A stretch of DNA of 42,793 nucleotides from Cyclobacterium xiamenense (GTDB lineage: Bacteria > Bacteroidota > Bacteroidia > Cytophagales > Cyclobacteriaceae), in contig NZ_WIOK01000039.1 in assembly GCF_009467825.1 (NCBI RefSeq), positions 1 to 42,793 on the forward strand, read 5' to 3'. A program made the translations under genes and the position numbers. Numbering within the stretch: the first letter of the stretch is position 1; each line of letters begins with the position of its first letter. Shown piece by piece: positions 24,829-40,163 of this stretch. Under the pieces are notes generated by a model that ran no database searches, had not been told where the DNA came from, and saw only the letters and a list, made by a program, of their open reading frames with translations.

Positions 24829-24913
24829 AGAGGAGTGGCAGAGTGGTCGATCGCGGCGGTCTTGAAAACCGTTGAACCGAGAGGTTCCGGGGGTTCGAAT
24901 CCCTCCTCCTCTG
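24829..24913 (+). tRNA. tRNA-Ser (anticodon UGA)
   Basis: An 85-base class II tRNA. The 7-bp acceptor stem AGAGGAG (24829-24835) pairs exactly with CTCCTCT (24906-24912), then discriminator G at 24913; CCA is not encoded. The anticodon loop is CTTGAAA (24861-24867) with anticodon TGA at 24863-24865. It has a long variable arm, and the T loop TTCGAAT is at 24894-24900. Its 3' end is the attachment site of the downstream element, and the tRNA remains whole. Confidence 0.95.
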
Positions 24914-24914
24914 C
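24892..24914 (+). repeat. attL core (tRNA-Ser 3' end)
   Basis: 23-bp sequence beginning GGTTCGAATCCC, ending CCTCTGC. It is identical to 40082-40104. It includes the T loop and the 3' half of the acceptor stem, so integration keeps the tRNA functional. Confidence 0.93.
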
Positions 24915-24969: not shown

Positions 24970-24993
24970 GGGGTGTGAATTGGGGTGTTAATT
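24970..24993. repeat. Tandem 12-bp repeats at the left end (candidate integrase arm sites)
   Basis: GGGGTGTGAATT (24970-24981) and GGGGTGTTAATT (24982-24993) are adjacent. The same 12-mer occurs twice in tandem, same orientation, at the other end (39954-39977). A partial inverted copy TTAACACCCC is at 25171-25180. Confidence 0.75.
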
Positions 24994-25368: not shown

Positions 25369-26034
25369 ATGTTTTATCACATTGGACAACCTAAGAACAT
25401 ATTGGACTTAAATCTGCCCCAACTGAAGCTACAAAGCGTCGAGCGAAAAGATGTTAAGATGGCACTAGTGGATGACGAGCCTTTCGAATATCTAGAGGAC
25501 TTAAAATTTCACGGATTTAATATCGCCTATTTTCCTGATGTAGAGGCAATTGAGTCCCTTTTGGCATATGAGGTAGTTCTGTGTGATATAAAGGGGGTAG
25601 GTAAAAAGTTTAAAAGTAAATATGAAGGCGCTCATGTAATGAGAGAGCTAAACCTAAAATATCCTTTTAAAACGATTTTCGCGTTTACTGGCTACAGCTA
25701 TGACCCTACATTTAATTCGTATTTGAGTGTTGTCGACAATGTACTCAAAAAGGACATTGATCAAGATGAATGGATCGAAGCTTTAGATTTGGCCATCAAA
25801 CTTTCAACCGATCCGATCAAAAGATGGTATAAAATTAGAGACTTTCTGCTTTCCAGGGATGTAACGTTATTCAATTTAACAAAACTTGAAAATGAGTATG
25901 TAAGAATTCTCCTGAACAAAGAAGACATTTCAAACTTCCCGAGTAATCGTGCAACTAAAGGAATGCCTCAGGACTTACGATCTGTTCTTCAATCATTTAC
26001 AGCCAGCTTGATCTTCAAACTTTTGATACCATGA
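25369..26034 (+). CDS. Receiver-domain protein (two-component response regulator-like)
   Basis: A 221-aa soluble protein. Residues 29-145 read as a response-regulator receiver with all key residues in place: acidic pair D35-D36 (VDDEPF), phospho-acceptor D73 (VVLCDIKGVG), T107 (IFAFTGYS) and K127 or K128 (NVLKKDID). The C-terminal 75 residues are helical and contain no DNA-binding or enzyme domain I recognise, so it may act by protein contact. The stop codon overlaps the next gene's ATG by four bases (ATGA), so it is translationally coupled to a histidine kinase. Its presence as cargo on an integrated element beside a restriction enzyme suggests a regulatory or defence role, which is inference. 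Confidence 0.7.
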   Translation: MFYHIGQPKNILDLNLPQLKLQSVERKDVKMALVDDEPFEYLEDLKFHGFNIAYFPDVEAIESLLAYEVVLCDIKGVGKKFKSKYEGAHVMRELNLKYPFKTIFAFTGYSYDPTFNSYLSVVDNVLKKDIDQDEWIEALDLAIKLSTDPIKRWYKIRDFLLSRDVTLFNLTKLENEYVRILLNKEDISNFPSNRATKGMPQDLRSVLQSFTASLIFKLLIP

Positions 26035-27158
26035 GAGAACTGAATTTTAGTCCTGTTCCATTTCTTGTCAGTCCAACACAGATTCCTAAATCAGGAATCG
26101 TTTTCGATTTACCAAGATTCTGCTCGAATGTATTCAATAAGAAGTGTCAGGACCATTATATCGACCTTGTTGCATCAAAAAAATTAGGAGCAGTGCAATG
26201 TCCTTACGGCTTTGCTTCTGAAAAGATAAATGTCAACAATAAGGATTTCATTCTGACAGCACTTAATGTTGAAAAAATATCGGAAAGAAAGAAACTTCAA
26301 AGAAACATCCATAAAAAGGATTTCTCGCCAAGATTAAGCAAGGAAAGTTATAAACGAATTAAGGAGGAGTTTGCGAATTTTATTCAGATGAACTCAGACC
26401 TAACCAATACATTAAAGAATTTTTCTGAAGCACAATTCGACCTTAATGAGAATAAAGAATTGTTAGATAACACCTTTCATGAGCTCAGAAAACTCAATCA
26501 ACAGTTGAAAAAACAAACTGAGACTCTAACCAAGGAAATCAACGCTTATAATCCGAACTATCAGCGAATAAAGTATCTAGGTCTAAATGTGTATTCTACA
26601 TCTAGATTGATTTCTTCAAGGCTCAATACGTATGATTTTATTCTGAATCCGGATTTGGCTCTATCTAATGTTAAAAAGCCAACTCCATTATTTAAGAGAT
26701 TTGAGAAAGTAATCCACTGTTTAAAAGTAGAATCAGAACACAGGGGGGTTAATCTTTACTTGAATGGCAATTCCTATAAAAGGATCAATGCTAATGAGGT
26801 AATCGAATTGCTACCCTTTCTCCTTATAGAAAATGCTCTTAAATATTCTCCAAAAAATGAAGCTGTGAATGTGAAATTTCTGGAATCTGAAGATCTCTTG
26901 CAAATAAGAATAAGAAATTGGGGTCCACGACCGGCAGATCAAGAAGTAAATTCTTTAACAGAGAGAGGTGTTCGAAGCTCAAACGCCGAAGATGTTGAAT
27001 CTGGTTCGGGTCTTGGTCTGTTCCTTTCAAATTTCATTTGCGAAATGCATGGTATTGAAATGGAAATAAAAATCGGCAATGAGAGAAAATATTTGAATAA
27101 TAAAGTGTACTCTGAATTTATTGTCGATTTAAGGTGTAAGGAACTAATTGACGAATAA
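26031..27158 (+). CDS. Soluble histidine kinase-like ATPase
   Basis: A 375-aa protein with no membrane segment. The C-terminal HATPase domain has the N-box LIENALKYSP (N268 region) and the G-box GSGLGLFLSNF (325-335). An upstream coiled-coil region (about 103-175) contains FHELRKLNQQL with H150 as a candidate phospho-histidine. Residues 20-90 form a separate N-terminal region with cysteines (FCSNVFNKKC, AVQCPYGFASEK), possibly a degenerate sensory domain. It is coupled to the receiver gene by a 4-base overlap, so the two should form a phosphorelay pair in the cytoplasm. I do not recognise the subfamily; the signal and output are unknown. A+T content looks higher than in the chromosomal genes. 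Confidence 0.75.
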   Translation: MRELNFSPVPFLVSPTQIPKSGIVFDLPRFCSNVFNKKCQDHYIDLVASKKLGAVQCPYGFASEKINVNNKDFILTALNVEKISERKKLQRNIHKKDFSPRLSKESYKRIKEEFANFIQMNSDLTNTLKNFSEAQFDLNENKELLDNTFHELRKLNQQLKKQTETLTKEINAYNPNYQRIKYLGLNVYSTSRLISSRLNTYDFILNPDLALSNVKKPTPLFKRFEKVIHCLKVESEHRGVNLYLNGNSYKRINANEVIELLPFLLIENALKYSPKNEAVNVKFLESEDLLQIRIRNWGPRPADQEVNSLTERGVRSSNAEDVESGSGLGLFLSNFICEMHGIEMEIKIGNERKYLNNKVYSEFIVDLRCKELIDE

Positions 27159-27312: not shown

Positions 27313-27648
27313 ATGCTCATTCCTAACTCCAACGACAATATTTACCCAAGCAACCAAGAAAATATAAGAGCTATCCTCGACTTTTATTTTCATCTCCCAG
27401 ATGGGGACATTGACTTCTTATTTTCTCAAAAGGAATTAAAGATAAATCAAATAGAATTTATAGCAAGACAGGTCTCAACAAATATGGAATTCTTTAAACT
27501 AAAAGTACCTTATGGACTTACAATTTCAAATCTAATGAGCTACGGAATTGATGCCTTAGCCAAATCGGATCCTAGTAGACATGGGAGTAAAAACCGTCAA
27601 GAAATTGCGAAAGAATTTAGAGAAATAGTTTCTAGAAACCAAAACTGA
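27313..27648 (+). CDS. Small hypothetical protein
   Basis: A 111-aa protein of unknown function. It opens LIPNSNDNIYPSNQENIRAI and ends in a basic helical stretch (SKNRQEIAKEFREIVSRNQN). There is no signal peptide or membrane helix and I recognise no domain. It lies 154 bases after the kinase gene on the same strand and could be its third partner, but the gap makes co-translation unlikely. A weak hairpin follows at 27681. It may be spurious, but composition and isolation favour a real small gene. Confidence 0.45.
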   Translation: MLIPNSNDNIYPSNQENIRAILDFYFHLPDGDIDFLFSQKELKINQIEFIARQVSTNMEFFKLKVPYGLTISNLMSYGIDALAKSDPSRHGSKNRQEIAKEFREIVSRNQN

Positions 27649-27808: not shown

Positions 27809-27925
27809 CTACTTTTTCGACGGAGGCTTGGGGCGACTAACAGGCGGCGGTATGGTTCTTCCTTTCTGTTCTTCGCCTGGGGAGGCCGGTCGAGTAGTCG
27901 GTGTTGGATTATTTTTTTTAGCCAT
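27809..27925 (-). CDS. 38-aa proline-rich microprotein
   Basis: A 38-aa reading frame that starts at an ATG (27925-27923) and stops at TAG (27811-27809). It begins MAKKNNPTPTTRPASPG and ends PPPVSRPKPPSKK; about a quarter of the residues are prolines, with lysines at both ends. Its start overlaps the end of the upstream membrane protein gene (ATGGCTAA), so it should be translated by re-initiation. Position and composition suggest a partner of that membrane protein, for example a disordered cytoplasmic peptide. I know no function. Similar small proline-rich proteins occur beside 3-helix membrane proteins in Bacteroidota to my recollection. Confidence 0.55.
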   Translation of the reverse strand: MAKKNNPTPTTRPASPGEEQKGRTIPPPVSRPKPPSKK

Positions 27926-28355
27926 GATGGTACGCGTTTATTCCAGTAAAAGTTAAAATGCAAAGAATACCTAGCCCGAGCAAAATAATTGAACTGAAAT
28001 TCAATCGGGATATTATTTTGTTTCGGCTATCAATATTCTTTATCAAATTCAGCGTTGAGATATTTTCATCAATTTCCTGGACTGTTTTTTCATTGTACCG
28101 ACTTGAAAGGTAATGCGAAATCAAATTCAGAAATAGCGTAGTCGCCAGAAAAAACCAACCCAACAAAACTACCCAAACAAAAACCGATTGGTCTAATGGG
28201 CTCAATTTGTCAATAAAGGTCACGGTAATGGCCAATGCTCCGGAGGAAATGAAGGTAATATATTTTTCAAAATCGTCATCACTTCTGCTTTTCTGTTCCA
28301 AAACAGCTTGCCGGTGCAAATTTCGTTCTTGAGAATCTCTTTTGGATCGACGCAT
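27918..28355 (-). CDS. Three-helix membrane protein downstream of the Type ISP enzyme
   Basis: A 145-aa protein with a charged N-terminus (MRRSKRDSQERNLHRQ), then hydrophobic helices at about 32-48, 57-78 and 119-138. A polar segment with RYNEKTVQEIDENIS lies between helices 2 and 3. It starts 9 bases after the stop of the Type ISP gene and overlaps the 38-aa gene by 8 bases, so three genes form one leftward translational chain. I do not recognise the family. A membrane-bound accessory to a restriction system would be unusual; it could also be an independent defence or exclusion module that shares the promoter. Confidence 0.65.
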   Translation of the reverse strand: MRRSKRDSQERNLHRQAVLEQKSRSDDDFEKYITFISSGALAITVTFIDKLSPLDQSVFVWVVLLGWFFLATTLFLNLISHYLSSRYNEKTVQEIDENISTLNLIKNIDSRNKIISRLNFSSIILLGLGILCILTFTGINAYHHG

Positions 28356-28364
28356 TTGAATTGA

Positions 28365-31300
28365 TTACGCTTTAAACTCCATTTTCGGCAACCCCTCCAC
28401 AATCTCCACAGTCTTCACACTCACATTGATAATGCCGAGTAGTAGATCCAGAATGTAGCGTGGTTTACCGACTTCTTCTGCCCAATCATTGGGGTCGTTT
28501 TTGATGCCGCTGGCTTTGTCGATTTTTACCTGGTAGCGTTCCATGATCCATTCAATGGCGGATTTGCCGTTGACTACATATTCATAGGCTTTATCCGGTA
28601 TGTTGAAAACCACAATTTTGCTGTTGTAAATGATGGTATCCTTTTGGCCTTTCTTCGGAAATCGCATTTTTTCAACCCGGAAAAAGCCTGAGCCATCTCC
28701 CGAAACTTCTACACCTTCATAAGACGGTACATCTTCATAATTGATATGCAAGTCGGCCAATGCCCGGCCGGCTTTGCTGAACTTCCAAAAATCCCGAACG
28801 TCTTCTACCAGAGGAATGCGGGGTAGCATTTTCTTTAAATCATTGGCAAAGGCGGTGCGGTAGTCCGGGCTGTGTAATATTCCGTAGACATAGTAGAAAA
28901 TATCTTCTTTAACTACATTTTTTCCATATATCTTCTTTGCCCGCTCCAAGATAAAATCAGAAACCCCATCCCTGCGGATGTATTCGCTTTCTCCTGTGAC
29001 ATCAAACAGGCTCGGGCTGTTCTTTTGACGTTCTTCGTAGTAGTATAGGGGGAAGCATTGGGAATCACCATTAAAATGAAGGTTTGCAATTTGGTCAGTA
29101 ATTAAAACTGCTAATCCTTTTGTAGACCCAACACAAGAAACGCAAATAACTAGGTTCGATATATTTGGTGATGGAAAGAGCTTTACATTTTGATAAAGCA
29201 TGGCATTGAAGTCTCTATCGAAATACAGAAACTGCTTACAAAACGGTCGATAAGTGCTTTTATAAATTCTTTCTTTCTTGAATTGGATTTTCTTTCCTGC
29301 CTTAATTTGGTTGCGTAGACCTCTATCCCAGCTAATTTTGGTTTGTTCAGACTCAATGATGTCTTCTACAGTGATACTTGAATTAGCTGAATGTGCCTTT
29401 TGAAAATTCGTAAGTTGTGTATTATAATATTCAATTGAGCCATTCAAATTTATTGTAAGTTCTTTTTTCGAAAAGGAATAGCACCAAACATCTCTACTAG
29501 TATTTAAACCGAGAGAATGAAAAAGAAAGTACGACTTAGTATATGGATCAAATTTTTTATCAGCTGCGATTGGAATAAAAGTATCAAATACATCATTCCG
29601 CTGGTTCAGCCAATCGCCATGTTCATTAGGTTGCAAGGCTTTCCATTTCATTTCTGTATTCCCAACCGACTTGAATTTCTTCACAATCGCCAACTTTTGT
29701 TCCTGGCTTAGGTAGTCGCCAATATCATGGTAATGAATGGTTGCCTGATTATTATTGGCATTTGGTTTTTTCACCAAAAGCGTAATCGAAATAGGAGTTC
29801 GCGAACCGCCACCAAAAACGTTCCCCGCCTCTTTCTGCCTTAATTCTCCTTGAGTTCTTGCATTACCCCGAAGATTAAAAACCCAAATACTCGAAAATTC
29901 TGTTTCTAAGGCTTTACGGAAACCATCCATCCCATTGGCATCTAACCACCCTCCATTTGATACAAAACAAACAATACCCCCTTCTCTGGATAGCCTGTCT
30001 GAACTCCATCTAAATGCTTTGATATAAGCGTCATATAAAGCTTTTACAGACGTAGCGGCACTTCCTTTGGCATAGGTTTTCTCAATTCGTTTATCGAGTT
30101 CCTCGTATTTTAAATTCTTTGCAAAATCATTCTCAGATTTTTGCCCAACCGAATAAGGCGGATTACCCATAATCACCCGCAAAGGCGCTTTCTTTTGTCG
30201 GGCTACTCGTGCTGAGTTTTGCAGAAACATTTCGGAGAAAAGTTTTTGGCTTTCGTCTGTTTCACTCAATTGGAACGTATCAGTCAGTACTATGCCTTCA
30301 AAAGGTTCATATTGGCTCCCTTCGCCTTCGCTCAGGGTGCCAGCAAGTTGGTCGTGATAGGCATTTTCAATATTTACGGCAGCTATATAATAGGCCAGAA
30401 GCACAATTTCATTGGCATGCAGTTCGTGTTTGTATTTACGTGCAAGGTCTTTTCCATCTATTAATCCACTCTGAAGTAATCGGGTAATGAAGGTTCCCGT
30501 TCCGGTAAAGGGGTCGAGTATGTGAATGTTATCATCCGAAATGCTTCTGTCAAATTCCTTCTTCAATATGTCATTTACCGAGTGAATGATGAAATCTACC
30601 ACCTCCACAGGTGTATAAACAATACCCAACTGTTCCACCATTTTCGGGAAAGCTGTTTTAAAGAACTTGTCATACAATTCAATGATGATACGTTGTTTGC
30701 CTTCAGCATTGTCAATGCCCTCTGCTCGTTTACGTACCGAATTGTAAAATTTCTGCAGGGTTTCCGATTCTTCGGCTACCGATTTACCTTCCAAGGCTTC
30801 CAGCATGCCCTGCATAGCATTGGAAACGGCATTGCTTTTTACAAAGGAATACCCTTCAAACAAAGCTTCAAAAATTGGTTTGGTAATGATGTGCTGCGCC
30901 AACATGTCAATCGCCTGCAATTCAGAAATGCTGGGATTGATGTTTTTCTGCAAGCCAGCCAGAAAATTGTCAAATGCCTTGCGTTGGTCGGTTTTGGTTT
31001 CAATGAGGTGTTTGATACGTTCAATTTGCCGGTCGGCAATAATCGCCACATCCTTTGCCCATTGTTCCCAGTATCTACGATCTCCGACTTTCTGAACCAT
31101 GCGTGCAAATACCACCGATTGCAATTGTTCAAATTGTAAGGCCATTTGTCGGTTGATGTCTTTGGTAGTTTCATAAGCATCTGAATCTTCGTTCCAAGCT
31201 TGGGGGTTCCCGTCTTCATCAAATGAATATTCAGGCCGTCCAACCAGGATGTTGTTGGGCTTTTTCTTATTTAACTCAAGTTTGTTTACCGTAGCATTGA

Positions 31301-33248
31301 AGCGGTCATCATGTGCGCGAAGTGCATTCAGCACCGTCCAAACCACTTTGTAGCGTTCGTTGTCATCAAGTGCTTTGTCTGCTTCTACATCTGCAGGGAC
31401 AACCACTGGTATGACAATGTATCCGTATTTTTTCCCAGGAGCCCTGCGCATCACCCGACCAACCGACTGCACAACATCCACCTGGGAGTTTCTTGCAGAT
31501 AGGAACAATACAGAATCCAATCCTGGTACGTCTACCCCTTCACTGAGCACACGTACATTGGTAATGATGCGGCATTCATTGTCTTCGGTTTCTTCTTTTA
31601 GCCAGGCGAGCATTTGGTCGCGCTCCGGTGCAGCCATGGTGCCATCCATGTGTTTGGAGGCTACACTTACCATTTTTTCCTTTTTATCGGCAGGTAACGA
31701 ACCTAAATAGGCATCTGTGGCCGTGTTGTACGTAGCGGTGATTTTTTTAGAAGTGGCAATATTGGCGCAGAAAGCGACTGCACGTTTCATGGGTTCAGGA
31801 TCCGCTTCCCGGGTGCTGCCATCATCGCCCAAAAATTGTTTGCTAAGTGCATTGATGCAGCCTATCAGTTTGGATGCATCATCCGTGGTGATTTCTGTTT
31901 CCTTATCGGCAATCATGCGCTGTACAGCTGGAGGAACATCTTTATCATTCAGTGTCAGAATCAGGACCTTATAATCGGTCAGTAAATCCCTTTCTACAGC
32001 TTCACCAAACCCAATCCGATATATTTCTTCCCCATACAATGCCGGATCATCCATGGAGCATAAAATGGCTTCTGCCTGGGCTGCCTTGCTTTTGGTGTTG
32101 TCATCATACAGCCGAGGGGTAGCCGTCATGTATAAACGCTTTTTTGCCCTGATAAAATTGGCATCGTGTACCCTGGTAAATGCCGATTCATCTTCACCTG
32201 CCAAGGAAACACCAGTGGTTCTGTGGGCCTCATCACAAATGATGAGATCAAATTCAGGAAAGCCATTTTTAAGCAAGACCTGTTGGGCCCGGGCGATCAC
32301 TTCAATTGATTGGTAGGTTGAAAACACCACCGTCATTCCCGGCCGTTCATTTTTCTTGATCTGTTCAAACTGATGAAGAATAAAATCTGAATTTGTAGAT
32401 GCCGGAAAGGCCAGATCGACCACGCTAAAAGAATCTGTATCTTGGTTTTTGCTTTTTTGTTTGGTGATATCCGGATCTGAGCAGATGGCAATGGCATTGA
32501 TGGGTTCGTTGGCATCTGCACTCCATTCCCGAAGCGTTTGGCCCAGTAGGGCAATGGAAGGGACCAGGAAAAGTATCAACCCTTTTCCGTCGGTTTCATG
32601 TTCAGCTATGCGTAGTGAAGTGAATGTTTTACCGGTACCGCATGCCATAATAAGCTTTCCCCGATCTTGCTGCTGAAAATGTGCATGGGCTTTTTCCAGG
32701 GCTTCTGTCTGGTGGGGACGAAGCGATTTTTTAGGGGTGCGGGCCTGCTCTCCATGAACGCCATTTTCGAGTTGTTCCCAATCCACGGGAGAATCCACCA
32801 AATTGAACAGGTTGATCCGAGTGACCGGAGGGTTTTGGTTCTTAATGGCCTGTTCTGCATTTGTCCCCCAGTTATTGGTTGTCGAAATCCAAAGCCGGTG
32901 AGCAAACCGGGTTGTTTGAAATTGTTCATTCTTGAATTCCCGGCTGGAGGTAGACAGAAAACTGTCCACTGCAGGCTTGTTAATGGTTGAATTCTCCTGA
33001 AAGCATTTGCATTGTACTGCCCAGTAATCCCCCTCATGGGTGAGAGCTACTAAATCAATCCCCGTGTCCCCGCCACCTAAATCAAGCTTTCCCGGAAATT
33101 CATTCCATAACCAGACGTTTTTAAATTTATATGCATACTGCGGATCAGTTCGTAAATAAGCTTGCATCAACCGTTCGAAACGGGCTCCTTTGTCTTGTTC
33201 TGAAAAAGCAATTTTTCTGTATTTGTCCAGGATTTTTTGAAAACTCAT
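28365..33248 (-). CDS. Type ISP restriction-modification enzyme (single chain)
   Basis: A 1,627-aa protein with nuclease, translocase, methyltransferase and specificity parts in one chain, as in LlaGI and LlaBIII (about 1,580 aa). Residues 1-160: Mrr-like PD-(D/E)XK nuclease with D65 (DTGIDLVAL) and Q79-C-K81 (WAVQCKCF). About 170-620: SF2 helicase with ACGTGKT (202-208), DEAH (339-342), TATPRL (375-380) and QSVGRVMRRAPGKK (594-607). About 860-1250: N6-adenine methyltransferase with IVYTPVEVVDF, DPFTGTGTF (912-920) and NPPY (1029-1032). The rest is the target-recognition region. It methylates one strand of an asymmetric site and cleaves after translocating complexes meet. All catalytic motifs look intact. 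It heads a chain with two small genes. Confidence 0.93.
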   Translation of the reverse strand: MSFQKILDKYRKIAFSEQDKGARFERLMQAYLRTDPQYAYKFKNVWLWNEFPGKLDLGGGDTGIDLVALTHEGDYWAVQCKCFQENSTINKPAVDSFLSTSSREFKNEQFQTTRFAHRLWISTTNNWGTNAEQAIKNQNPPVTRINLFNLVDSPVDWEQLENGVHGEQARTPKKSLRPHQTEALEKAHAHFQQQDRGKLIMACGTGKTFTSLRIAEHETDGKGLILFLVPSIALLGQTLREWSADANEPINAIAICSDPDITKQKSKNQDTDSFSVVDLAFPASTNSDFILHQFEQIKKNERPGMTVVFSTYQSIEVIARAQQVLLKNGFPEFDLIICDEAHRTTGVSLAGEDESAFTRVHDANFIRAKKRLYMTATPRLYDDNTKSKAAQAEAILCSMDDPALYGEEIYRIGFGEAVERDLLTDYKVLILTLNDKDVPPAVQRMIADKETEITTDDASKLIGCINALSKQFLGDDGSTREADPEPMKRAVAFCANIATSKKITATYNTATDAYLGSLPADKKEKMVSVASKHMDGTMAAPERDQMLAWLKEETEDNECRIITNVRVLSEGVDVPGLDSVLFLSARNSQVDVVQSVGRVMRRAPGKKYGYIVIPVVVPADVEADKALDDNERYKVVWTVLNALRAHDDRFNATVNKLELNKKKPNNILVGRPEYSFDEDGNPQAWNEDSDAYETTKDINRQMALQFEQLQSVVFARMVQKVGDRRYWEQWAKDVAIIADRQIERIKHLIETKTDQRKAFDNFLAGLQKNINPSISELQAIDMLAQHIITKPIFEALFEGYSFVKSNAVSNAMQGMLEALEGKSVAEESETLQKFYNSVRKRAEGIDNAEGKQRIIIELYDKFFKTAFPKMVEQLGIVYTPVEVVDFIIHSVNDILKKEFDRSISDDNIHILDPFTGTGTFITRLLQSGLIDGKDLARKYKHELHANEIVLLAYYIAAVNIENAYHDQLAGTLSEGEGSQYEPFEGIVLTDTFQLSETDESQKLFSEMFLQNSARVARQKKAPLRVIMGNPPYSVGQKSENDFAKNLKYEELDKRIEKTYAKGSAATSVKALYDAYIKAFRWSSDRLSREGGIVCFVSNGGWLDANGMDGFRKALETEFSSIWVFNLRGNARTQGELRQKEAGNVFGGGSRTPISITLLVKKPNANNNQATIHYHDIGDYLSQEQKLAIVKKFKSVGNTEMKWKALQPNEHGDWLNQRNDVFDTFIPIAADKKFDPYTKSYFLFHSLGLNTSRDVWCYSFSKKELTINLNGSIEYYNTQLTNFQKAHSANSSITVEDIIESEQTKISWDRGLRNQIKAGKKIQFKKERIYKSTYRPFCKQFLYFDRDFNAMLYQNVKLFPSPNISNLVICVSCVGSTKGLAVLITDQIANLHFNGDSQCFPLYYYEERQKNSPSLFDVTGESEYIRRDGVSDFILERAKKIYGKNVVKEDIFYYVYGILHSPDYRTAFANDLKKMLPRIPLVEDVRDFWKFSKAGRALADLHINYEDVPSYEGVEVSGDGSGFFRVEKMRFPKKGQKDTIIYNSKIVVFNIPDKAYEYVVNGKSAIEWIMERYQVKIDKASGIKNDPNDWAEEVGKPRYILDLLLGIINVSVKTVEIVEGLPKMEFKA

Positions 33249-33885: not shown

Positions 33886-34569
33886 ATGACAAATTCAAAA
33901 AATGATATAAAAATATCAGCCCGGTTTGGTTTATTTCTATCTAATTCAAATCGATGGGTAGCTCTACTATTTATAATTTCATTGAATTTGCTTTTTCTTA
34001 ACCATTTTGCTCCAAAAATTATTATTTCTGATTTTTGGTTTAAATTGTGGATGATTTCAGAAAATATAATTTATTCCCTAATCGCAGCAAGTATTTTCTA
34101 TTTCTTTTTGGAGGTTTTACCAAAAGTTGAAGCTCAAAAAGAATTTTTCTTACACGCACATCTTATGCAGGAAAAATTGGTTGCCAATTTAATATTTTTG
34201 AAAGAAATACTTGATTCAGTCCCTGATAGTGATAATACTAAAAAAATCGAAGAAATAATTTACAATTCAGATGAAGAAATACCACATCCATTATTCCCGA
34301 TTGGTGATTCAAACATTCTTTGTATTATAAAAGGCATAAATAAAACAGCTAAATATGAAGCTAAGCTTCTTCAAAAATTATACGGACATCTGCCAAAGAA
34401 CATTACAGGGATTGCAATTGATGCGGTAATGGAAAGTATTGCCAAGAAATCGAAATTACCTACTAAAGGAGAAATATCAGAGATTAAGCTTGCAGTAGAT
34501 TTACATCTTACCGTTCTTGCCTCAATTGAAGCCCAGATCATACGTTACGTTAGTTTGACAAAAAAATAA
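33886..34569 (+). CDS. Membrane-anchored hypothetical protein
   Basis: A 227-aa protein with two N-terminal membrane helices (about 25-45 and 57-82; WVALLFIISLNLLFLNHF and IIYSLIAASIFYFFLEVLP) and a cytoplasmic domain of about 140 residues that is helical and charged. No enzyme motif is visible. It is strongly A+T-rich compared with the chromosome, like other cargo of the element. It is transcribed rightward, converging with the terminase small-subunit gene and adjacent to the IS remnant. A role in phage exclusion or membrane disturbance is possible from context only. Confidence 0.6.
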   Translation: MTNSKNDIKISARFGLFLSNSNRWVALLFIISLNLLFLNHFAPKIIISDFWFKLWMISENIIYSLIAASIFYFFLEVLPKVEAQKEFFLHAHLMQEKLVANLIFLKEILDSVPDSDNTKKIEEIIYNSDEEIPHPLFPIGDSNILCIIKGINKTAKYEAKLLQKLYGHLPKNITGIAIDAVMESIAKKSKLPTKGEISEIKLAVDLHLTVLASIEAQIIRYVSLTKK

Positions 34570-34629: not shown

Positions 34630-35145
34630 TCAGTTTCTCGAATAATAGTCATTTATTTGCGCAAAGAAATTTTCCTTTGCCGACGCGTTGGCCTCCTGAT
34701 TGGGTTTTACCAACTCCCACAGCCGCTGGAGGGCTGCTAGTTTGTCGTGGAGCTGGACTTTTACTCCCCGGTCTGTTTTTTCCAGGTTTTTGATAGCAGG
34801 AGTTTTCTCGGGATCCATTTCCTGCAGTTCCTTTAGGCTCCAATCTGAATTGAATACATCGGTGATGTCAGAAAATGCAATGGCAGCCAGTTCCCGGAGT
34901 ACACGTTCCTGGGTGATACCCAACTGCTCCATGATAGGTTTGGTTTTAAACCGAATGTAGTTCAAAATATCAGGTTTTTTCAGGTTTTCAAACCCTTGCT
35001 GACCGGCACATTTTTCTGAATAGCCGGCTTTCATCGCAGCATCGGTAGCATTTTTGGAAATGATGTAATGGTCTGCAAATTGGATTTCTCTATCAGTCAG
35101 TGTGACGGTTTCTTTTCCGATCTGTATTGTCTGTTTTTTTGCCAT
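34630..35145 (-). CDS. Phage terminase small subunit (TerS)
   Basis: A 171-aa protein of the Terminase_2 family, which recognises the packaging site and directs DNA to the large terminase. Visible features are LTDREIQFADHYIISKNATD and AAMKAGYSEKCAG (helix-turn-helix, about residues 16-48), ITQERVLRELAAIAFSDITD (about 97-116), and the C-terminal VQLHDKLAALQRLWELVKP. No large terminase, portal or head gene is in the window. It is the last gene of the leftward core and is preceded by a 348-base non-coding stretch with direct repeats. In phage satellites a lone TerS redirects helper packaging; that is the likely role here. It could also be a leftover of a prophage. Confidence 0.88.
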   Translation of the reverse strand: MAKKQTIQIGKETVTLTDREIQFADHYIISKNATDAAMKAGYSEKCAGQQGFENLKKPDILNYIRFKTKPIMEQLGITQERVLRELAAIAFSDITDVFNSDWSLKELQEMDPEKTPAIKNLEKTDRGVKVQLHDKLAALQRLWELVKPNQEANASAKENFFAQINDYYSRN

Positions 35146-35493
35146 GACTTATGGGGTTAAATAGCGAATATTTTAATTTTTTAGTTACAGGTGTCCGGGA
35201 TTTTTTAAGAAATGCCAATTAATTCTTTCTTTTTACTTCTATCGCTTAGTTGATGCGAAATGGAGCATGGAATGATGTCAGAAAAAAAACTAATCACCAT
35301 CTTTGAATACCTTTCTTTAATACCTTTCTTTAGTAGCTTTCTAAAACACCTTACTAGAGAATCTTTCTATAGGTGCAAGTCATTTGTTGGGTAATTGTCG
35401 TGATTTTGTTATTTACAAGTGCCATTTTATCATTTTTTTACTTGTCCCTTACTATAGGTGTCAGTATGGTGTAACACTGGTGTTCTCATGATG
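35146..35493. other. Non-coding stretch upstream of TerS
   Basis: No gene. It holds tandem 13-bp repeats (35306-35344) and two CTATAGGTG words (near 35370 and 35453). It could hold the TerS promoter, an origin, or the packaging or replication site of the element. Confidence 0.5.
35306..35344. repeat. Three tandem 13-bp repeats (iteron-like)
   Basis: AATACCTTTCTTT occurs at 35306-35318 and 35319-35331, followed by a degenerate copy AGTAGCTTTCTAA at 35332-35344. They are head-to-tail with no spacer, upstream of TerS. Iterons of a replication origin or TerS/regulator binding sites are both possible. Confidence 0.6.
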
Positions 35494-36198
35494 TCACTGC
35501 CCATTTAGTGCCCGGATTACCCTTTCCCTGGCCTCCTTTTTCTTTATTTTTAAGTCTTTTTGTCGTTTGGATTTTCGCCTTTTTTCAACTTGCAATACCA
35601 GGTCGTCAAGCGTCATGGAGAACGAGAAATAAAATCCTCTGGTGTAATGGGCATAGTAGACCAATCCCCAGTTCAATTCCAATTCTTCAATGATTTTTGT
35701 TGTTTTCCACCGGGTGGTATATTCCTGCAATTTTTCTGGTAACTCCTTCTGCCAGTCCCTATTTTTAAATCTGACTGGAAAACCTGCCATCCTCGCAAAC
35801 ATGAAATTGTTATCGGCCTTTCCGTAGGGTTGGGGTAAATTGATTGATTTAAGGGCAAGGAAAGCAAGTAGACATACTTTCTCAAAATCCGATTTTTCAT
35901 TATTTCGAAAATCCCAAAATATTTTAGTTCCTATCCCAACCATAGGAGGCCTTTCCGGAATGGAGTCCATAAGTTGCTCGCCTCGTTGTTTGATCGTTTT
36001 AATGGTAATATTGCAAACGGATAAATAATCAGCTGCATCTTTTATTCGATCGCCAATTTCTCCACTTTCATGAGATCGGGCACGATGGTAAATAGCATAG
36101 TGGAGAATATTGCGAAGACACCGCTCGCAATGAGCCTCGTCGATTAAGAAGCCGTGCAGCAATTGAATTGGGAAGTTGAAATATTTTTGCTCCATCAC
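35494..36198 (-). CDS. Hypothetical protein of the satellite core
   Basis: A 234-aa protein with no membrane segment. It opens MEQKYFNFPIQLLHGFLIDE and contains CERCLRNILHYAIYHRA near residue 24, a central FARMAGFPVRFKNRDW region, and a very basic C-terminus (EKRRKSKRQKDLKIKKKEAR). The basic tail suggests nucleic-acid binding. I recognise no named family. Its start overlaps the VRR-NUC gene by four bases, so the two are translationally coupled. Its position between nuclease and TerS fits a replication or packaging accessory, but nothing in the sequence proves it. Confidence 0.65.
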   Translation of the reverse strand: MMEQKYFNFPIQLLHGFLIDEAHCERCLRNILHYAIYHRARSHESGEIGDRIKDAADYLSVCNITIKTIKQRGEQLMDSIPERPPMVGIGTKIFWDFRNNEKSDFEKVCLLAFLALKSINLPQPYGKADNNFMFARMAGFPVRFKNRDWQKELPEKLQEYTTRWKTTKIIEELELNWGLVYYAHYTRGFYFSFSMTLDDLVLQVEKRRKSKRQKDLKIKKKEARERVIRALNGQ

Positions 36199-36713
36199 AT
36201 TAATTGATCTATAGCCCTAAAAAACTCATGCAAAAAGCCGTCAAATGACCTGGCGATGATGTAAATGCCTCCTGCCTGTTCAATCCGCTTTTGGTACTGC
36301 TTCTGTGCATCGCTCTGCCGATCATTGCCAATTTTCACTTCCACTTTCACGGACAGGCCGAATACCGTTGCCGAGATATCCGCGGTTCCCTCCGTGGAGG
36401 TACCGCGAACCCATTCGACCGAACCAATCGACCGTCTTGCACCGGTGATTGGGTCCGTGTAGGTTTTGGTGTTATCTACCTGCCTACCCATGCTATTTAT
36501 CCGTTCCGCAATGCCTCCCTGCAGCCGGAAGAACTGAATAATCGCCTGTGTTAACTCATTAGCTGTTCGGTCCTGGAATCGTTTTGGTTTGTTTCGCGCA
36601 TATACGGGGATCAATGGTCTGTCCCGGTAGGTGAATTCATGCATTCTTTCTGACAATTGTTTTAAAGGCTGTTTGTCAGATTTTTTGTCCCAATTGATTT
36701 GATATTTTTTCAT
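36195..36713 (-). CDS. VRR-NUC-like PD-(D/E)XK nuclease
   Basis: A 172-aa protein resembling virus-type replication-repair (VRR-NUC) nucleases, which cut branched DNA. The core is GTADISATVFGLSVKVEVKI: D112, then E125-x-K127 provide the D...ExK metal site. DAQKQYQKRIEQAGGIYIIA (about 135-154) supplies the usual Q-x3-Y-type helix and last strand. The N-terminal 40 residues are basic. It is the second-to-last upstream gene of the TerS side of the core and overlaps the next gene by four bases. Phages and satellites use such enzymes for replication or junction resolution. Confidence 0.75.
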   Translation of the reverse strand: MKKYQINWDKKSDKQPLKQLSERMHEFTYRDRPLIPVYARNKPKRFQDRTANELTQAIIQFFRLQGGIAERINSMGRQVDNTKTYTDPITGARRSIGSVEWVRGTSTEGTADISATVFGLSVKVEVKIGNDRQSDAQKQYQKRIEQAGGIYIIARSFDGFLHEFFRAIDQLM

Positions 36714-36837
36714 TTGTCACGTTTTCTTGTTAAGCCCATTTTTCGGCGTTTATAGCCATTAAGAGGATATTAAAGTAGATGATCGCCAAAACATCAATAA
36801 AAGCGTCCTGACTTACCTAAAGTATGCTCTGGGAAGG

Positions 36838-37308
36838 CTATGTTGGACCGGTATCAATAGACCTCAGAATTTCCAGAATTTTTCTGGTAATTCTGGCCTG
36901 TAAATCCGGTCCTGTGGGGCTCTCTGAATCCAGCACATACAATCGGAAGCAGTGTCCATCGGAGCAAAACCGAACCAAAATCAACCGTTTCAATGGCTTC
37001 CCTTTCTGAAATATGGGCATACCACCATAATGCCACCCTTGAAAGTAAGTAGGCTTCAATTCCGTAAAAACCCGGTAAATCCCATGCTGTCTGCGGGATG
37101 AGAGAAAGCAGGCGCCCTGCCCTTGCTTATCGTCTGAAAATTCGATCTGCAATTCATCCGCGAACACGGTGTGCGATACCGATAATACCTGCTCGGTAGG
37201 GTCTTGTCGAAACCAATGGCTGGTTTCGTATTTTCGGTAATACCTGGCCCATGGAGGGGTCTCCTTTGTTTTGGTACCGGCAAGGGAAGGAATAATTGAA
37301 TGATTCAT
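36838..37308 (-). CDS. Hypothetical protein of the satellite core
   Basis: A 156-aa protein with no membrane segment. It includes YRKYETSHWFRQDPTEQVLS, then GACFLSSRRQHGIYRVFTEL and a C-terminal helix ARITRKILEILRSI. I recognise no domain. Its ATG at 37308 overlaps the stop of the helix-turn-helix gene (ATGA), so the two are coupled. Similar genes next to excisionase-like regulators in Bacteroidota elements seem familiar, but I cannot give a function. Confidence 0.6.
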   Translation of the reverse strand: MNHSIIPSLAGTKTKETPPWARYYRKYETSHWFRQDPTEQVLSVSHTVFADELQIEFSDDKQGQGACFLSSRRQHGIYRVFTELKPTYFQGWHYGGMPIFQKGKPLKRLILVRFCSDGHCFRLYVLDSESPTGPDLQARITRKILEILRSIDTGPT

Positions 37309-37586
37309 TTTCCCTTCTTTTTTCCGGTTTCCAATGCCTCCAATACCTTTTCCAGATCATACCGAACCACGGATCCTACCTGGATATAGGGAATTCGATT
37401 TTCTTTACGCCATTTGGCAAGCGTCGGTCGGGTGACATTGAGTTTTGCCAACAACTGGTCAGTGTCGACAATGATTCTTTCTTTTTTTTCTTTTCCTAAT
37501 TCCTCTGGATGTTTAAGGTCAAGAAGGAGTCCTTCAATATTTGCCAATCTGGCATCAAGGACTGCGAAGGGGTTTTGAATACTCAT
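37305..37586 (-). CDS. Helix-turn-helix excisionase-like / AlpA-like regulator
   Basis: A 93-aa DNA-binding protein. After an N-terminal helical part (LDARLANIEGLLLDLKHPEE) comes a winged helix-turn-helix of the excisionase/MerR type: DTDQLLAKLNVTRPTLAKWR followed by KENRIPYIQVGSVVRYD and the KVLEALE helix. Such proteins act as excisionase and/or as activator of satellite or island genes. I chose the ATG at 37586 over an upstream start at 37649 because the latter covers a likely operator. It is coupled to the 156-aa gene by ATGA. The direct repeats at 37638-37655 upstream may be its operator. Confidence 0.8.
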   Translation of the reverse strand: MSIQNPFAVLDARLANIEGLLLDLKHPEELGKEKKERIIVDTDQLLAKLNVTRPTLAKWRKENRIPYIQVGSVVRYDLEKVLEALETGKKKGK

Positions 37587-37635
37587 TTCTGCAATTGATT
37601 TAGTTTGCAGAAATATTATTCGGTTTGTAAATGCG

Positions 37636-37655
37636 CAACCGGTTGGCACCGGTTG
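37636..37655. promoter_or_regulatory. Candidate operator: 8-bp repeats one helical turn apart
   Basis: ACCGGTTG occurs at 37638-37645 and 37648-37655, a 10-bp period; the same bases also form a hairpin (CAACCGGT at 37636-37643, ACCGGTTG at 37648-37655). It lies 50 bases upstream of the helix-turn-helix gene and 8 bases past the stop of the 281-aa gene. Confidence 0.5.
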
Positions 37656-37663
37656 AAAAAAAA

Positions 37664-38509
37664 TTATTCCTCTACTGAAAGCGAGGCTATTAAAGTTTTC
37701 ATTTCTTCATTTGCCTTTTTTTTCTTTTCCTCTGGAAGTCGTTCAATGGCCCACCTGTAATCATTAATTCTATTTTTTTTTTGAATTTGGGATCTTAGCT
37801 CTGAACTGTTCTTGTATCGCCGTATTGGTTCTGTTATGATTGAGAATATATCAGCTAGTTTTTTACCGTTTTTGTAACCATATTCCGTGGCTATTTTGTC
37901 GAAATCGTGGTTGTACGGTTTTTCGTTTTTGAAATAGAGAAGAAGGGCAAGTTTCTTTGTTGAAGCACCATCTTTGTATTTCTTTTTTTGGATTATTGGT
38001 TCATTGGTTTTACCCTGCAAAAAATTATATTGGCCTTTCTTGTGATTCAAGAAACTTTCACGGAGCTTCTGAACGTCCTTGTGACTGAGTACAAAAATGT
38101 CTTGAATTTGTCGGAATGTTGAAAGCACCTCAGCATTGATCTGAGTTTGATTCAGCCCGTCAAACAGTATGGCATCTGATCCAATCTGGTTTCTGTTTAC
38201 CACAGCATCTTGAAATTTAGGATTTTTAAAATACTCTACAATCAATCGAAACCCAGATTTCGTCAACCTATCAAATTCCTTCAGCCTATTTTCCTTTTTC
38301 GGGACCAAAGAATCCGTGAAAATTAAAATGACTCCATCGACAAAATTATGCCAATCTACTCGATTTCCTTTCCCTTCATTTGCTATCAGGTAGGCCATTT
38401 GCAAGAACATCTTTGGCTTCCCATTCAAAAAATCAACAAATGAATGAGAGGCGATTCTATGAACCCACATTGAGAGCCTTTCTGCAACAGGATTATCGTT
38501 ATTTTTCAT
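37664..38509 (-). CDS. Hypothetical protein next to the integrase
   Basis: A 281-aa soluble protein, basic and A+T-rich. It opens NNDNPVAERLSMWVHRIASH and has KFQDAVVNRNQIGSDAILFD in the middle and a C-terminal region with DKIATEYGYKNGKKLADIFS. No catalytic motif is recognised. Placed between integrase and excisionase-like genes on the same strand, it might be the element's replication initiator or regulator; this is inference from position. The start at 38509 leaves a 68-base gap from the integrase stop. Confidence 0.6.
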   Translation of the reverse strand: MKNNDNPVAERLSMWVHRIASHSFVDFLNGKPKMFLQMAYLIANEGKGNRVDWHNFVDGVILIFTDSLVPKKENRLKEFDRLTKSGFRLIVEYFKNPKFQDAVVNRNQIGSDAILFDGLNQTQINAEVLSTFRQIQDIFVLSHKDVQKLRESFLNHKKGQYNFLQGKTNEPIIQKKKYKDGASTKKLALLLYFKNEKPYNHDFDKIATEYGYKNGKKLADIFSIITEPIRRYKNSSELRSQIQKKNRINDYRWAIERLPEEKKKKANEEMKTLIASLSVEE

Positions 38510-38577
38510 TTGCTATAACTGTTGGACTCCCATGAATATCCTCCTTGGGAGTAATAAAAAATTCCACCTTTTTTGTT

Positions 38578-39906
38578 TCAACCCGCTTTCAAAATATCCA
38601 TTTTACCCCATACCCGTTCCATTTCGCTGATGCTATGGGTACGGCTCAGGTTCACATACCGTTTGAAACTGGCATAGGATTCATGACCAGACCACTTCAT
38701 TACGGTTTCTACCGATGCACCACGCTCCAGGGACAGCGTACAGAACGTTTTTCTACCGGTGTGCGCAGATACAAGTTGATGCTTAGGGAATACCTGCTTT
38801 AGTTCTTCGGCTCCCCTAAATCGGACGATCTCAACGGGTTCATTTATTTTTGCCACCTCACATACCTCCTTGATATACTTCGATAGCTTTTGGTTGGAAA
38901 TTTTAGGGAGCGGGTAGGCTAAATCGCTGTATTTTTCCAGTATTTCCATGGAAATCGGGTTTAGTGGGATTTCCCAGGGCTTGCTGCCTTTTTTCATCGT
39001 TAGCTGGATGGTATGGCCTTTGATATGTTCTCGCTTGAATTGAGCATAATCGGAATAGCGCATACTGGTCGCACAAAGGAAAATGAAAATATCCCGGGCT
39101 TTTATGTGCCTGCTGACTCCCTTCAAATCACATTCCTTCAATGCTTTGTATTCCGATTCCGAAAGGGTGATCACTTCTAATTTTTGACGTTTGATGGTAA
39201 AATCCCGGTAGGATTGATTCATTTCGATTCCATGCTTCCGGGCATACCCCAATAAGGTTTTCAGGGTACTCAGTTGTTTGGCAATGGTGATATTGTTCAG
39301 GGTTGTCCTTTTTTCGATTAGGAATGATTGGAATTCCTCAAAAAATGAAAGGCCAATCAAATCAAAAGTAATTCTTCGGCCGGACCAAGCTTCATATGCT
39401 TCCAGGTGATTTTTCAACTGCTTATACACGCCTAAACTCTTCTTAGCTCTGCTGGCCCGGTTGCGCTCCACATAGGTATCAATAAATTCAGCGACACCCG
39501 GAATTCTTTCAGTGGGTTTTTGAGGACCTTTTATTCCAGTAGCAGTATTGGAATTTTTGAATGCTGAATAAATATCTTCGATAGAATATTCCTTGTCAGC
39601 TAATCTGAATCCATCCTCAATAAAATCAAGTTGGGACTTAATTTTTATCAGGCGTGAATTGATACGATTAATATCCGATTCCATCAGAAACAATGTTGCA
39701 CTTGCTCCTGCATGTTTTGAATACACTTTTTTGTTGAGGTAAATCGCTTTCTGATTCGATTTATCCCAATTGCAAGGTGGAATATTGATTTCTGTTGCGA
39801 TACGCTTTCTCTTTTGAGAAACCGAAATCATGCAAGAGATAGGGACCAAGCCCTCCTGATTCATTTTGTCCTGTCGGGTTTCGAACCGAATTGTAAGTTT
39901 TGCCAT
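38578..39906 (-). CDS. int: Tyrosine-recombinase integrase of the element
   Basis: A 442-aa site-specific recombinase that should insert and excise the element at tRNA-Ser. Domains in order: an N-terminal arm-binding part (LTIRFETRQDKMNQEGLVPI), a SAM-like core-binding domain (about 137-240) and the catalytic domain. The catalytic set is R283 (ATSMRYSDY), K305/K306 (TMKKGSK), H382 and R385 (SAHTGRKTF), H408 (WSGHES) and Y417 (FKRYVN). It is of the long Bacteroidota mobile-element type, unlike the 294-aa chromosomal XerC. I chose the ATG at 39906 over a GTG three codons upstream. Tandem 12-bp repeats lie 48 bases upstream and may be bound by it. Confidence 0.93.
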   Translation of the reverse strand: MAKLTIRFETRQDKMNQEGLVPISCMISVSQKRKRIATEINIPPCNWDKSNQKAIYLNKKVYSKHAGASATLFLMESDINRINSRLIKIKSQLDFIEDGFRLADKEYSIEDIYSAFKNSNTATGIKGPQKPTERIPGVAEFIDTYVERNRASRAKKSLGVYKQLKNHLEAYEAWSGRRITFDLIGLSFFEEFQSFLIEKRTTLNNITIAKQLSTLKTLLGYARKHGIEMNQSYRDFTIKRQKLEVITLSESEYKALKECDLKGVSRHIKARDIFIFLCATSMRYSDYAQFKREHIKGHTIQLTMKKGSKPWEIPLNPISMEILEKYSDLAYPLPKISNQKLSKYIKEVCEVAKINEPVEIVRFRGAEELKQVFPKHQLVSAHTGRKTFCTLSLERGASVETVMKWSGHESYASFKRYVNLSRTHSISEMERVWGKMDILKAG

Positions 39907-39953
39907 CTTTTTCACAGTTTACAACAATGCAAGATACAAAAAAAATTACAATT

Positions 39954-39977
39954 GGGGTGTTAATTGGGGTGTTAATT
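39954..39977. repeat. Tandem 12-bp repeats at the right end (candidate arm sites)
   Basis: Two perfect adjacent copies of GGGGTGTTAATT (39954-39965, 39966-39977), in the same orientation as the pair at 24970-24993. They lie between the integrase start and attR, so integrase binding there could also repress its own gene. Confidence 0.8.
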
Positions 39978-40081: not shown

Positions 40082-40104
40082 GGTTCGAATCCCTCCTCCT
40101 CTGC
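40082..40104 (+). repeat. attR core
   Basis: Exact copy of the 23 bases at 24892-24914, without the rest of the tRNA upstream. The 5' boundary is at 40082: the base before differs from the tRNA (A versus G). Confidence 0.93.
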
Positions 40105-40126
40105 TTTTAGTCAATCAAATGTTTCG

Positions 40127-40163
40127 AAAAGCCCCTAATTTTAGCGTTTAGGGGCTTTTTTTA
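40127..40163 (+). terminator. Displaced native terminator of tRNA-Ser
   Basis: AAAAGCCCCTAA (40127-40138) is exactly reverse-complemented at 40148-40159 with a 9-base loop, and runs into TTTTTTTATTTT. It is 22 bases past the attR core. No gene lies just upstream, so it most likely terminated the tRNA transcript before the element inserted. Confidence 0.75.

Follow-up and report, generated by a model that had tools for sequence, protein, structure and literature searches.

A probable phage satellite, organised like a phage-inducible chromosomal island and with partly new core genes, at a tRNA-Ser gene of Cyclobacterium xiamenense (Bacteroidota)

The contig NZ_WIOK01000039.1 of Cyclobacterium xiamenense, a stretch of 42,793 nucleotides referred to here as the window, carries between positions 24892 and 40104 an element that is very probably an integrated phage satellite of the Bacteroidota, similar in organisation to the phage-inducible chromosomal islands (PICIs) and with core genes that are in part new. 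The evidence comprises clear element boundaries with arm-type repeats inside them, a terminase small subunit (TerS) gene without a recognised terminase large subunit (TerL), portal or capsid gene, relatives with varied cargo, selection on TerS, and an iteron array. A PICI-type satellite had been proposed in a preliminary description of the window, which placed it at 34630..39906; the core genes do lie there, but the element as a whole runs well beyond them. The satellite interpretation itself is supported, and neither of the two outcomes named there as contrary to it arose: TerS scores far above the Terminase_2 cut-off, and the close relatives are not prophages.

The limits of the element are set by an exact direct repeat of 23 bp, the left copy of which (attL, 24892..24914, forward strand) forms the 3′ end of a tRNA-Ser (TGA) gene detected by ARAGORN (24829..24914, forward strand), with the right copy (attR, 40082..40104, forward strand) 15190 bp away. 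In 18 kb a particular 23-mer would be expected by chance about 3e-10 times, and the resulting span of 15.19 kb bears out the size of 15.2 kb and the tRNA site given previously. The GC content of the element is 0.40, compared with 0.49 in the stretch of chromosome to the left of the tRNA gene. Near the ends of the element are two tandem copies of GGGGTGTKAATT on the left (24970..24993, forward strand) and two tandem copies of GGGGTGTTAATT on the right (39954..39977, forward strand). With at most one mismatch this motif occurs four times in the whole window, every time at the element ends, while 0.64 matches are expected from shuffled sequences and four were reached in none of 100 shuffles. The terminal repeats look like integrase arm sites and would be bound by the arm domain of the integrase. 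The motif is also present within both ends of the related element in locus L358, exactly at 1360 and with one mismatch at 11767; at two mismatches that locus gives five matches, which is not above chance. Mobility through site-specific integration is well supported.

The TerS gene (34630..35145, reverse strand) is assigned with confidence, as its product matches the Terminase_2 family (PF03592), which the preliminary description had named, at E=5.2e-32 (111.8 bits, cut-off 26.1) and the terminase small subunit profile of PHROGs at 1.1e-28, and a profile built from four TerS relatives matches the solved TerS structure 3zqp at 2.1e-14. Matches to the protein were found in 213 phage records, none of them at 60% identity or more. 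Thirteen main open reading frames (ORFs) were chosen in the element, of which ten were scanned with PHROGs and 12 with Pfam; the ORF at 27313-27648 was scanned with PADLOC only, and those at 27918-28355 and 28365-33248 with PADLOC and Pfam. In these scans no convincing match to a large terminase, portal, capsid, tail or lysis protein was found among the 13 ORFs, as had been claimed for all but the last of these. The weak matches that did appear, of the helix-turn-helix (HTH) protein described below to a TerS profile (0.0076) and of a kinase-like cargo protein to endolysin (0.14) and tape-measure (0.43) profiles, were taken as chance.

The solitary state of the TerS gene extends to its relatives in the Cyclobacteriaceae. 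For 119 of 152 TerS ORFs the locus also contains a TerL hit, usually adjacent to TerS or overlapping it, so our TerL model evidently works, and it gave no hit for any of the Cyclobacteriaceae rows among them. The lone group amounts to 33 ORFs, of which five enterobacterial rows and several at contig edges do not count as evidence for satellites. A tree was built from 132 TerS sequences (103 TerL-linked and 29 lone), and in it the window protein falls into a clade of ten rows, all lone and all from Cyclobacteriaceae, with an SH-aLRT support of 95. The tree omits L073, L075, L225, L239 and L026 (second copies of kept rows), L164 (a fusion), ORFs shorter than 120 residues, identical rows, L224 (the TerL-linked TerS of G100), the broken TerS of element E5, and L358-L361. 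For three close TerS pairs the dN/dS values are 0.12, 0.21 and 0.11, which shows that these pairs are under purifying selection; in three wider pairs the synonymous sites are saturated. After the conserved HDK the window TerS has a tail of 36 residues and that of L027 one of 38, close to the median of 40 (quartiles 36-47) among the 103 TerL-linked proteins, in only six of which the tail is 20 residues or shorter.

Read leftward from attR, all on the reverse strand, the core consists of an integrase, a protein of 281 residues, an HTH protein, a protein of 156 residues, a nuclease, a protein of 234 residues and TerS, and every ORF of the order described earlier is present. The tyrosine integrase (38578..39915) matches Phage_int_SAM_5, Phage_integrase and Arm-DNA-bind_5, all above the Pfam cut-offs; its start is probably the ATG at 39906, where homology begins, and it is 79% identical to the integrase of the L358 element, which is located at a tRNA-Ser(GGA) in another genus. 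The 281-residue protein (37664..38509) has homologues in L358 and L359. The AlpA/Xis-like HTH protein (37305..37649) had been called excisionase-like, which agrees with a PHROG excisionase/regulator match at 2.5e-5, but against HTH_17 it scores 26.6 bits, just below the cut-off of 27, while the corresponding protein of L027 reaches 44.7 bits; it would act as an excision activator. The 156-residue protein (36838..37308) is 27% identical to its homologue in L027. Its structure model (pLDDT 64.6) is rich in β-strands and gave no Foldseek match at E ≤ 0.001; the top matches, to engineered or natural lipocalins with a TM score of about 0.2, were rejected. Three of the seven core proteins, those of 281, 156 and 234 residues, have no convincing family match in the library scans.

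The nuclease (36195..36713) had been described as VRR-NUC. It matches PHROG profiles for an endonuclease (1.4e-6) and a Holliday-junction resolvase (3.3e-5), and the motif GTAD together with E, K, D and Q residues is invariant in an alignment of eight sequences, but its score against the Pfam VRR_NUC family is 14.4 bits, under the cut-off of 23.8, and among solved structures the nuclease profile reaches the nuclease 4qbo at only 0.019; the PHROG matches and the invariant residues make the label VRR-NUC-like a fair one. Homologues were found in 58 uncultured viral loci, and of nine that were opened eight have TerL, the nuclease was recognised by blast in eight, and both are present in seven. 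Since the nuclease is common to uncultured phage contigs, a phage source is suggested for it. The long ones among these contigs (L271, L272, L290, L294, L324 and others) are mostly about 30-38 kb, and in them the VRR-NUC-like gene adjoins a large gene and lies upstream of TerL; such phages could be related to the helpers. In the phage record collection neither the nuclease nor the 234-residue protein has a match.

The replication module is probably formed by the 234-residue protein (35494..36198, reverse strand), as the initiator, and the repeats downstream of its gene, as its origin. Between this gene and TerS lie tandem iterons of 13 bp (35300..35342, reverse strand), identified with Tandem Repeats Finder, and two ACCTATA motifs at 35368 and 35453 (35368..35459, reverse strand). 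The protein has no family match and has homologues in five other loci, and iterons or the ACCTATA motif follow its gene in five of the six, L027 having a 13-bp array of its own. In a shuffle test the repeats were equalled in none of 200 shuffles for the window, L027, L062 and L063, in 18 of 200 for L359 and in 33 of 200 for L061; in a control with 30 genes of the window, only the 234-residue gene itself scored 0 of 40. Four of the six loci (the window, L027, L359 and L063, not L061 or L062) have ACCTATA twice within the 250 bp downstream, in total eight times against 0.26 expected and in none of 500 shuffles, a count that is not a blind test as the motif was picked after the sequences had been viewed. 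The genes in the same slot of E3, E8 and E12 have no such repeats (56, 107 and 36 of 200 shuffles). The iterons directly precede terS in the window and in L027, and they might instead be the packaging site (pac) recognised by TerS; this is rather unlikely because the iterons or the motif also follow the 234-residue gene in loci whose TerS belongs to another family (L062, with a phrog_83 TerS beside a tRNA-Met, and L063) or does not come next (L359), which argues for the origin and initiator. The profile of the 234-residue protein gave nothing convincing among solved structures (best E 0.13), no relative was found in viral contigs, and an AlphaFold model from an alignment of two sequences had a mean pLDDT of 43.5 and was not used. 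By profile comparison the family is unrelated to the 284/304-residue family that occupies the same slot, and the two integrase-adjacent families are likewise unrelated to each other.

A similar core with different cargo recurs in the Cyclobacteriaceae, as had been predicted for other Bacteroidota. TerS homologues were found in 20 of the 291 order genomes sampled and, with profile A4, in 13 of 196 from the family, and a scan of named genomes gave 70 TerS loci, of which Cyclobacterium, Litoribacter, Algoriphagus and Rhodonellum account for eight. The copies from the family that were examined number 15 (the window, contig 73 of the same genome (G000), L027, L265, L260, L256, L258, L263, L028, L077, L078 and L358-L361), with the weaker hits of G447, G415 and G382 outside this set. 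The most distant is L361, with 32% identity to the best reference; a further candidate, L362 (G404, 33% identity), was rejected as a phage, TerL being present. Eight of the 15 copies lie inside elements bounded by a direct repeat anchored on the 3′ end of a tRNA gene. The bounded elements range from 7.6 to 21.8 kb and use tRNA-Ser(TGA), Ser(GGA), Asn, Arg and Val. They are the window element (E1; 15.19 kb, tRNA-Ser(TGA), 23-bp repeat), E2 of Litoribacter ruber (L027; 7.59 kb, tRNA-Asn, 46-bp repeat), E3 and E4 of Cyclobacterium jeungdonense (19.58 kb, tRNA-Asn, 46-bp repeat, and 20.25 kb, tRNA-Arg, 51-bp repeat), E5 and E6 of Cyclobacterium sp. SYSU L10401 (L256-L258; 20.6 and 21.8 kb, in tandem at one tRNA-Asn and differing in cargo), E12 (L358; 10.6 kb, tRNA-Ser(GGA), 27-bp repeat) and E13 (L359; 9.7 kb, tRNA-Val, 45-bp repeat). 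By profile all eight contain one integrase, one TerS and no TerL, and seven have an HTH protein like that of the window, none being seen in E13. PHROG scans were partial for E2, E3, E5, E12 and E13, and E4 and E6 were checked for TerL and some large ORFs.

The gene content of these elements points to an exchange of modules. In E2 the 156-residue protein, the nuclease, the 234-residue protein and TerS appear in the same order as in the window with 27-43% identity, the integrase is 23% identical, and the HTH_17 protein matches by Pfam only. E13 has homologues of the integrase, TerS, the 281-residue protein, the nuclease and the 234-residue protein in a different order, with no 156-residue homologue seen. 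E12 shares with the window the integrase (79% identity), the HTH protein (73%) and the 281-residue protein (35%), but its TerS is a different one (44%), and it has an AAA_25 helicase and a DUF6371 gene in place of the nuclease and the 234-residue protein; an integrase at 79% identity next to a TerS at 44% and another replication module would indicate that modules are exchanged between elements. Helicase or primase genes (AAA_25, DUF6371, D5_N/DUF5906) occupy this same slot in L064, L077 and L358. On contig 73 of the window's own genome a second lone TerS (L261:2160-2600) is found near a tRNA-Arg(CCT). It shares 57% identity with the window TerS and 85% with its counterpart in the tRNA-Arg element of C. 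jeungdonense, and the contig has neither a recognised integrase nor an attachment (att) repeat in the stretch from 74 to 126 kb. A plan like that of these elements is also seen in L154, a viral contig from IMG/VR with an integrase, a DnaB helicase and a TerS without TerL, and this TerS also occurs in L149, L150 and L153.

The carrier genomes were also searched as a whole for phage genes. TerL was not found in any of seven carrier genomes with alignment A7, and phrog_2 gave one clear hit, in Rhodonellum (8.9e-13), besides weak hits (E 1e-7 to 1e-3, to proteins of 319-355 residues) in all 17 genomes searched, which we take to be generic ATPases; two of the weak hits (5.2e-5 and 5.6e-4) are in the window's genome outside the element. 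The searches for TerL are imperfect, as phrog_2 missed the TerL of contig 1 of G073 (a row of A7) that our own model found and A7 missed the Rhodonellum TerL that phrog_2 found, and both were used together with two portal families and one capsid family. The portal PF04860 was found in one of seven and the capsid PF05065 in one of nine carrier genomes, in both cases in Rhodonellum, and the SPP1-type portal PF05133 in none of nine. In Rhodonellum psychrophilum, then, contig 10 carries a prophage that has TerL, portal and capsid genes, and contig 4 carries the TerS element; together they are a candidate for a natural helper pair. In the same species (L263, G294) a second TerS lies in pieces about 3 kb from the intact copy.

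Several observations weigh against a satellite. No helper phage, particle or transfer was seen, and no interference or capsid-size gene is recognised in it. The five whole-genome profile searches for TerL, portals and capsid found no prophage in the window's genome, so a helper would have to come from outside. An att repeat was sought in 13 Cyclobacteriaceae loci (L077 and L078, as contig-edge copies, lay outside this search) and was not found for contig 73, L263, L028, L360 and L361; L360 also has a weak TerL hit (329 residues, 6e-6) about 6 kb from TerS, beyond a tRNA-Leu, which was taken as a generic ATPase. In L027 blastp gives no match to the HTH protein or the 281-residue gene of the window, and the TerS of E5 is broken, with an ORF of 71 residues and a stop inside the match. 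In the other eight TerS proteins of the clade, two of which are truncated at contig ends, the C-terminal tail is only 2-18 residues long; if this tail binds TerL, a packaging role of these eight is in doubt. Finally, the close relatives are not prophages, but some phage-type genes do occur in two order-level cousins of the 234-residue gene. A distant cousin, L063 (6745-9212), has an integrase, an HTH protein, the 234-residue gene, two phrog_309 TerS, TerL and an amidase-like protein, with no portal or capsid among ten ORFs scanned with PHROGs, and is perhaps a satellite with a complete terminase. L061 (3772-7650) has an integrase, an HTH protein, the nuclease, the 234-residue gene, a tape-measure protein of 1292 residues (PF20155) and a DUF5681-like ORF; no TerL was found there by our own model, the other structural genes not being searched for, and it is possibly a tail-altering satellite or a phage remnant.

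The terminase genes of L063 with its amidase-like match, the broken TerS of E5, the TerS fragments in G294 and G292, and the phage-type nature of TerS and the nuclease would all suit a decayed prophage that has lost every structural gene and gained defence genes. Such an origin is nevertheless highly improbable, as the lone TerS form one supported clade with three close pairs under purifying selection, and an integrase and TerS have been retained together across eight bounded elements, which occupy five kinds of tRNA gene and in seven cases also have the HTH gene; had these elements decayed independently, the same gene would not have been spared every time. The missing tail in most members of the clade, the lack of a detectable phage in several carrier genomes and a nameable cargo that consists of defence genes would agree with a defence island that moves only through its integrase, or in some other way, and whose TerS-like protein has been recruited as a DNA-binding regulator or as a decoy blocking phage packaging. 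This explanation, too, is improbable, given that TerS accompanies the integrase in all eight bounded elements and the HTH gene in seven, and that no relaxase was recognised in the Pfam scans of 12 of the 13 ORFs (E up to 1, or 0.01). Moreover, the 234-residue gene pairs with several TerS families (also phrog_83 in L062 and phrog_309 in L063), which speaks for a need for packaging rather than for one regulator.

For an integrated satellite, a cycle of excision, replication, packaging by a helper and transfer, with defence activity of the cargo, is proposed. On infection of the cell by a helper phage, or on induction of one, excision at the tRNA-Ser att site would be carried out by the tyrosine integrase together with the AlpA/Xis-like HTH protein, and the nuclease and the 234-residue protein would replicate the element at the adjacent iteron origin. 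The element's TerS would then recognise its DNA and recruit the TerL of the helper, bringing satellite DNA into helper capsids, and the integrase would insert the element at the tRNA-Ser of the next cell. The cargo, with its type IIG restriction enzyme and PDC-M43 pair, would protect the host against other phages. A wider proposal, to which we give somewhat less than even credence, is a satellite lineage of Bacteroidota that combines a new replication module (the nuclease, the 234-residue initiator and the 13-bp iteron origin) with packaging genes that are exchanged according to the helper, and in which the tRNA-specific integrases and the defence cargo are interchangeable as well; the packaging genes would tentatively include the Terminase_2 TerS in the window, Litoribacter and a Cyclobacterium-genus genome, the phrog_83 TerS in L062, the phrog_309 TerS with TerL in L063 and the tape-measure protein in L061.

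The cargo lies to the left of the core and contains anti-phage genes, as had been noted. A candidate defence pair on the forward strand consists of a PDC-M43A-like gene (25369..26034; PADLOC 7.5e-12, no Pfam match) and a PDC-M43B-like gene (26031..27158; PADLOC 1.3e-11) for a histidine-kinase-type ATPase with HATPase_c above the cut-off. These are followed by an ORF of 111 residues (27313..27648, forward strand) and one of 145 residues with hydrophobic stretches seen by eye (27918..28355, reverse strand), the former without a PADLOC match and the latter without a match in PADLOC or Pfam. A full-length type ISP / IIG restriction-modification enzyme of 1627 residues (28365..33248, reverse strand) matches REase_MTase_IIG of PADLOC over residues 1-1625 and Type_ISP_C and ISP_coupler of Pfam. 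Next to TerS is an ORF of 227 residues (33886..34569, forward strand), again with hydrophobic stretches by eye and without a convincing match in Pfam, PHROGs or PADLOC. PADLOC was run on the five bounded elements E1, E3, E4, E5 and E6, in four of them on selected large ORFs, and detected HmaA and HmaB in E3, Avs4 and a type I restriction-modification system in E4, a DrmD/HKD-Snf2-like helicase in E5 and a type I restriction gene in E6, which also has an ORF of 850 residues without a match. Immunity genes are also carried by phage satellites of Proteobacteria and Gram-positive bacteria.

The integration site appears to be used by other elements as well. The tRNA-Ser region was found in all 11 other Cyclobacterium-genus genomes sampled, none of which gave a clean empty site; among the loci from these genomes, L335 has a 62-bp, 76% match to the left end of the element and L332 (G298) matches the right flank of the window, the tRNA-Ser of the same kind in G298 being occupied by a different integrase element. 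The 244 bp adjoining attR in the window (40105-40348) are 98% identical to the sequence after the tRNA-Ser in G298 and extend into the start of the integrase gene there, which in the window is cut off; this segment is what remains of a second element at that site. Beyond it lies a TOTE-type primase/helicase gene (40765-42696). In other genomes of the genus (L327:2094-2200, L328, L329) this tRNA-Ser is followed first by tandem 12-bp repeats (TCAGGGGCGAAT), which resemble the arm sites of yet other integrases. The tRNA-Ser may be an integration hot spot in these genomes, that of the window's host measuring 5.78 Mb.

In the available text of PMC6092414 PICIs are defined by an integrase, a replication module and a master regulator in a conserved organisation, a size of about 12-15 kb, an att site that prophages never use, genes orthologous to those of known PICIs, and induction, packaging and interference with the helper phage. 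The element measures 15.19 kb, its relatives 7.6-21.8 kb. It resembles the Gram-negative PICIs of E. coli and Pasteurella, as far as they are covered there, in size, att-bounded integration, the lack of structural genes, the presence of accessory genes, and apparently also the order integrase, AlpA-like regulator, replication genes, (terS) (PMC6092414). In contrast to them, its replication proteins match no Pri-Rep-type family, its integrase is of the Phage_int_SAM_5 type and no helper is known; a replication module is suggested here by the iterons and by the helicase and primase genes in the same slot of relatives, not by homology to Pri-Rep. With the SaPI-type PICIs (Staphylococcus aureus pathogenicity islands) it has in common an integrase, a TerS of its own that in the element would direct packaging, and replication genes (here putative) followed by an origin, as described in the same available text (PMC6092414). 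It differs from them in phylum and in that no Stl-kind repressor family is among the window matches. The SaPI replication origin is iterated.

The element also resembles the phage-inducible chromosomal minimalist islands (PICMIs) of Vibrionaceae, for which the model comprises an integrase, an AlpA regulator (including PF12728), a DUF3987/DUF5906 primase and Fis (PMC10803314, available text), in the integrase and AlpA pair (PF12728 is HTH_17, nearly reached here), putative replication genes and defence cargo. It departs from this model in that neither the primase nor a Fis profile was found among its Pfam-scanned ORFs, whereas its cousin L077 of Algoriphagus sediminis matches the DUF5906 profile, and in having a TerS, the word terminase occurring 0 times in that available text (PMC10803314). 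The TerS belongs to the same sequence family as the SF6/SPP1-type TerS (3zqp, 2cmp), which in phages stand alongside a TerL, while none was found in the element. Capsid-forming PICIs (cfPICIs) have capsid, portal and TerL genes of their own. These were not found in the ORFs scanned here, which sets the element apart from cfPICIs and equally from a temperate phage or prophage, and the lack of a relaxase match separates it from integrative mobilizable or conjugative elements. No phage satellite described for Bacteroidota turned up in the literature searched, which consisted largely of papers outside subscription, and an earlier prediction, for instance in a large satellite survey of 2023, may exist. 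In the available text of PMC6092414 word searches for Bacteroid-, Flavobacter- and Cytophag- gave 0 hits each, and PMC12324425, on the topic of phage satellites and Bacteroidota, concerns other elements in the part available.

A recurrent family of TerS-bearing, capsid-less elements with restriction, Avs and Hma cargo would provide a route for defence systems to spread in Bacteroidota. With Litoribacter ruber, Cyclobacterium jeungdonense and Rhodonellum psychrophilum there are named species in which dependence on a helper is testable, and the pairing of one replication gene with several TerS families may serve as a natural experiment on the matching of satellites to their helpers.

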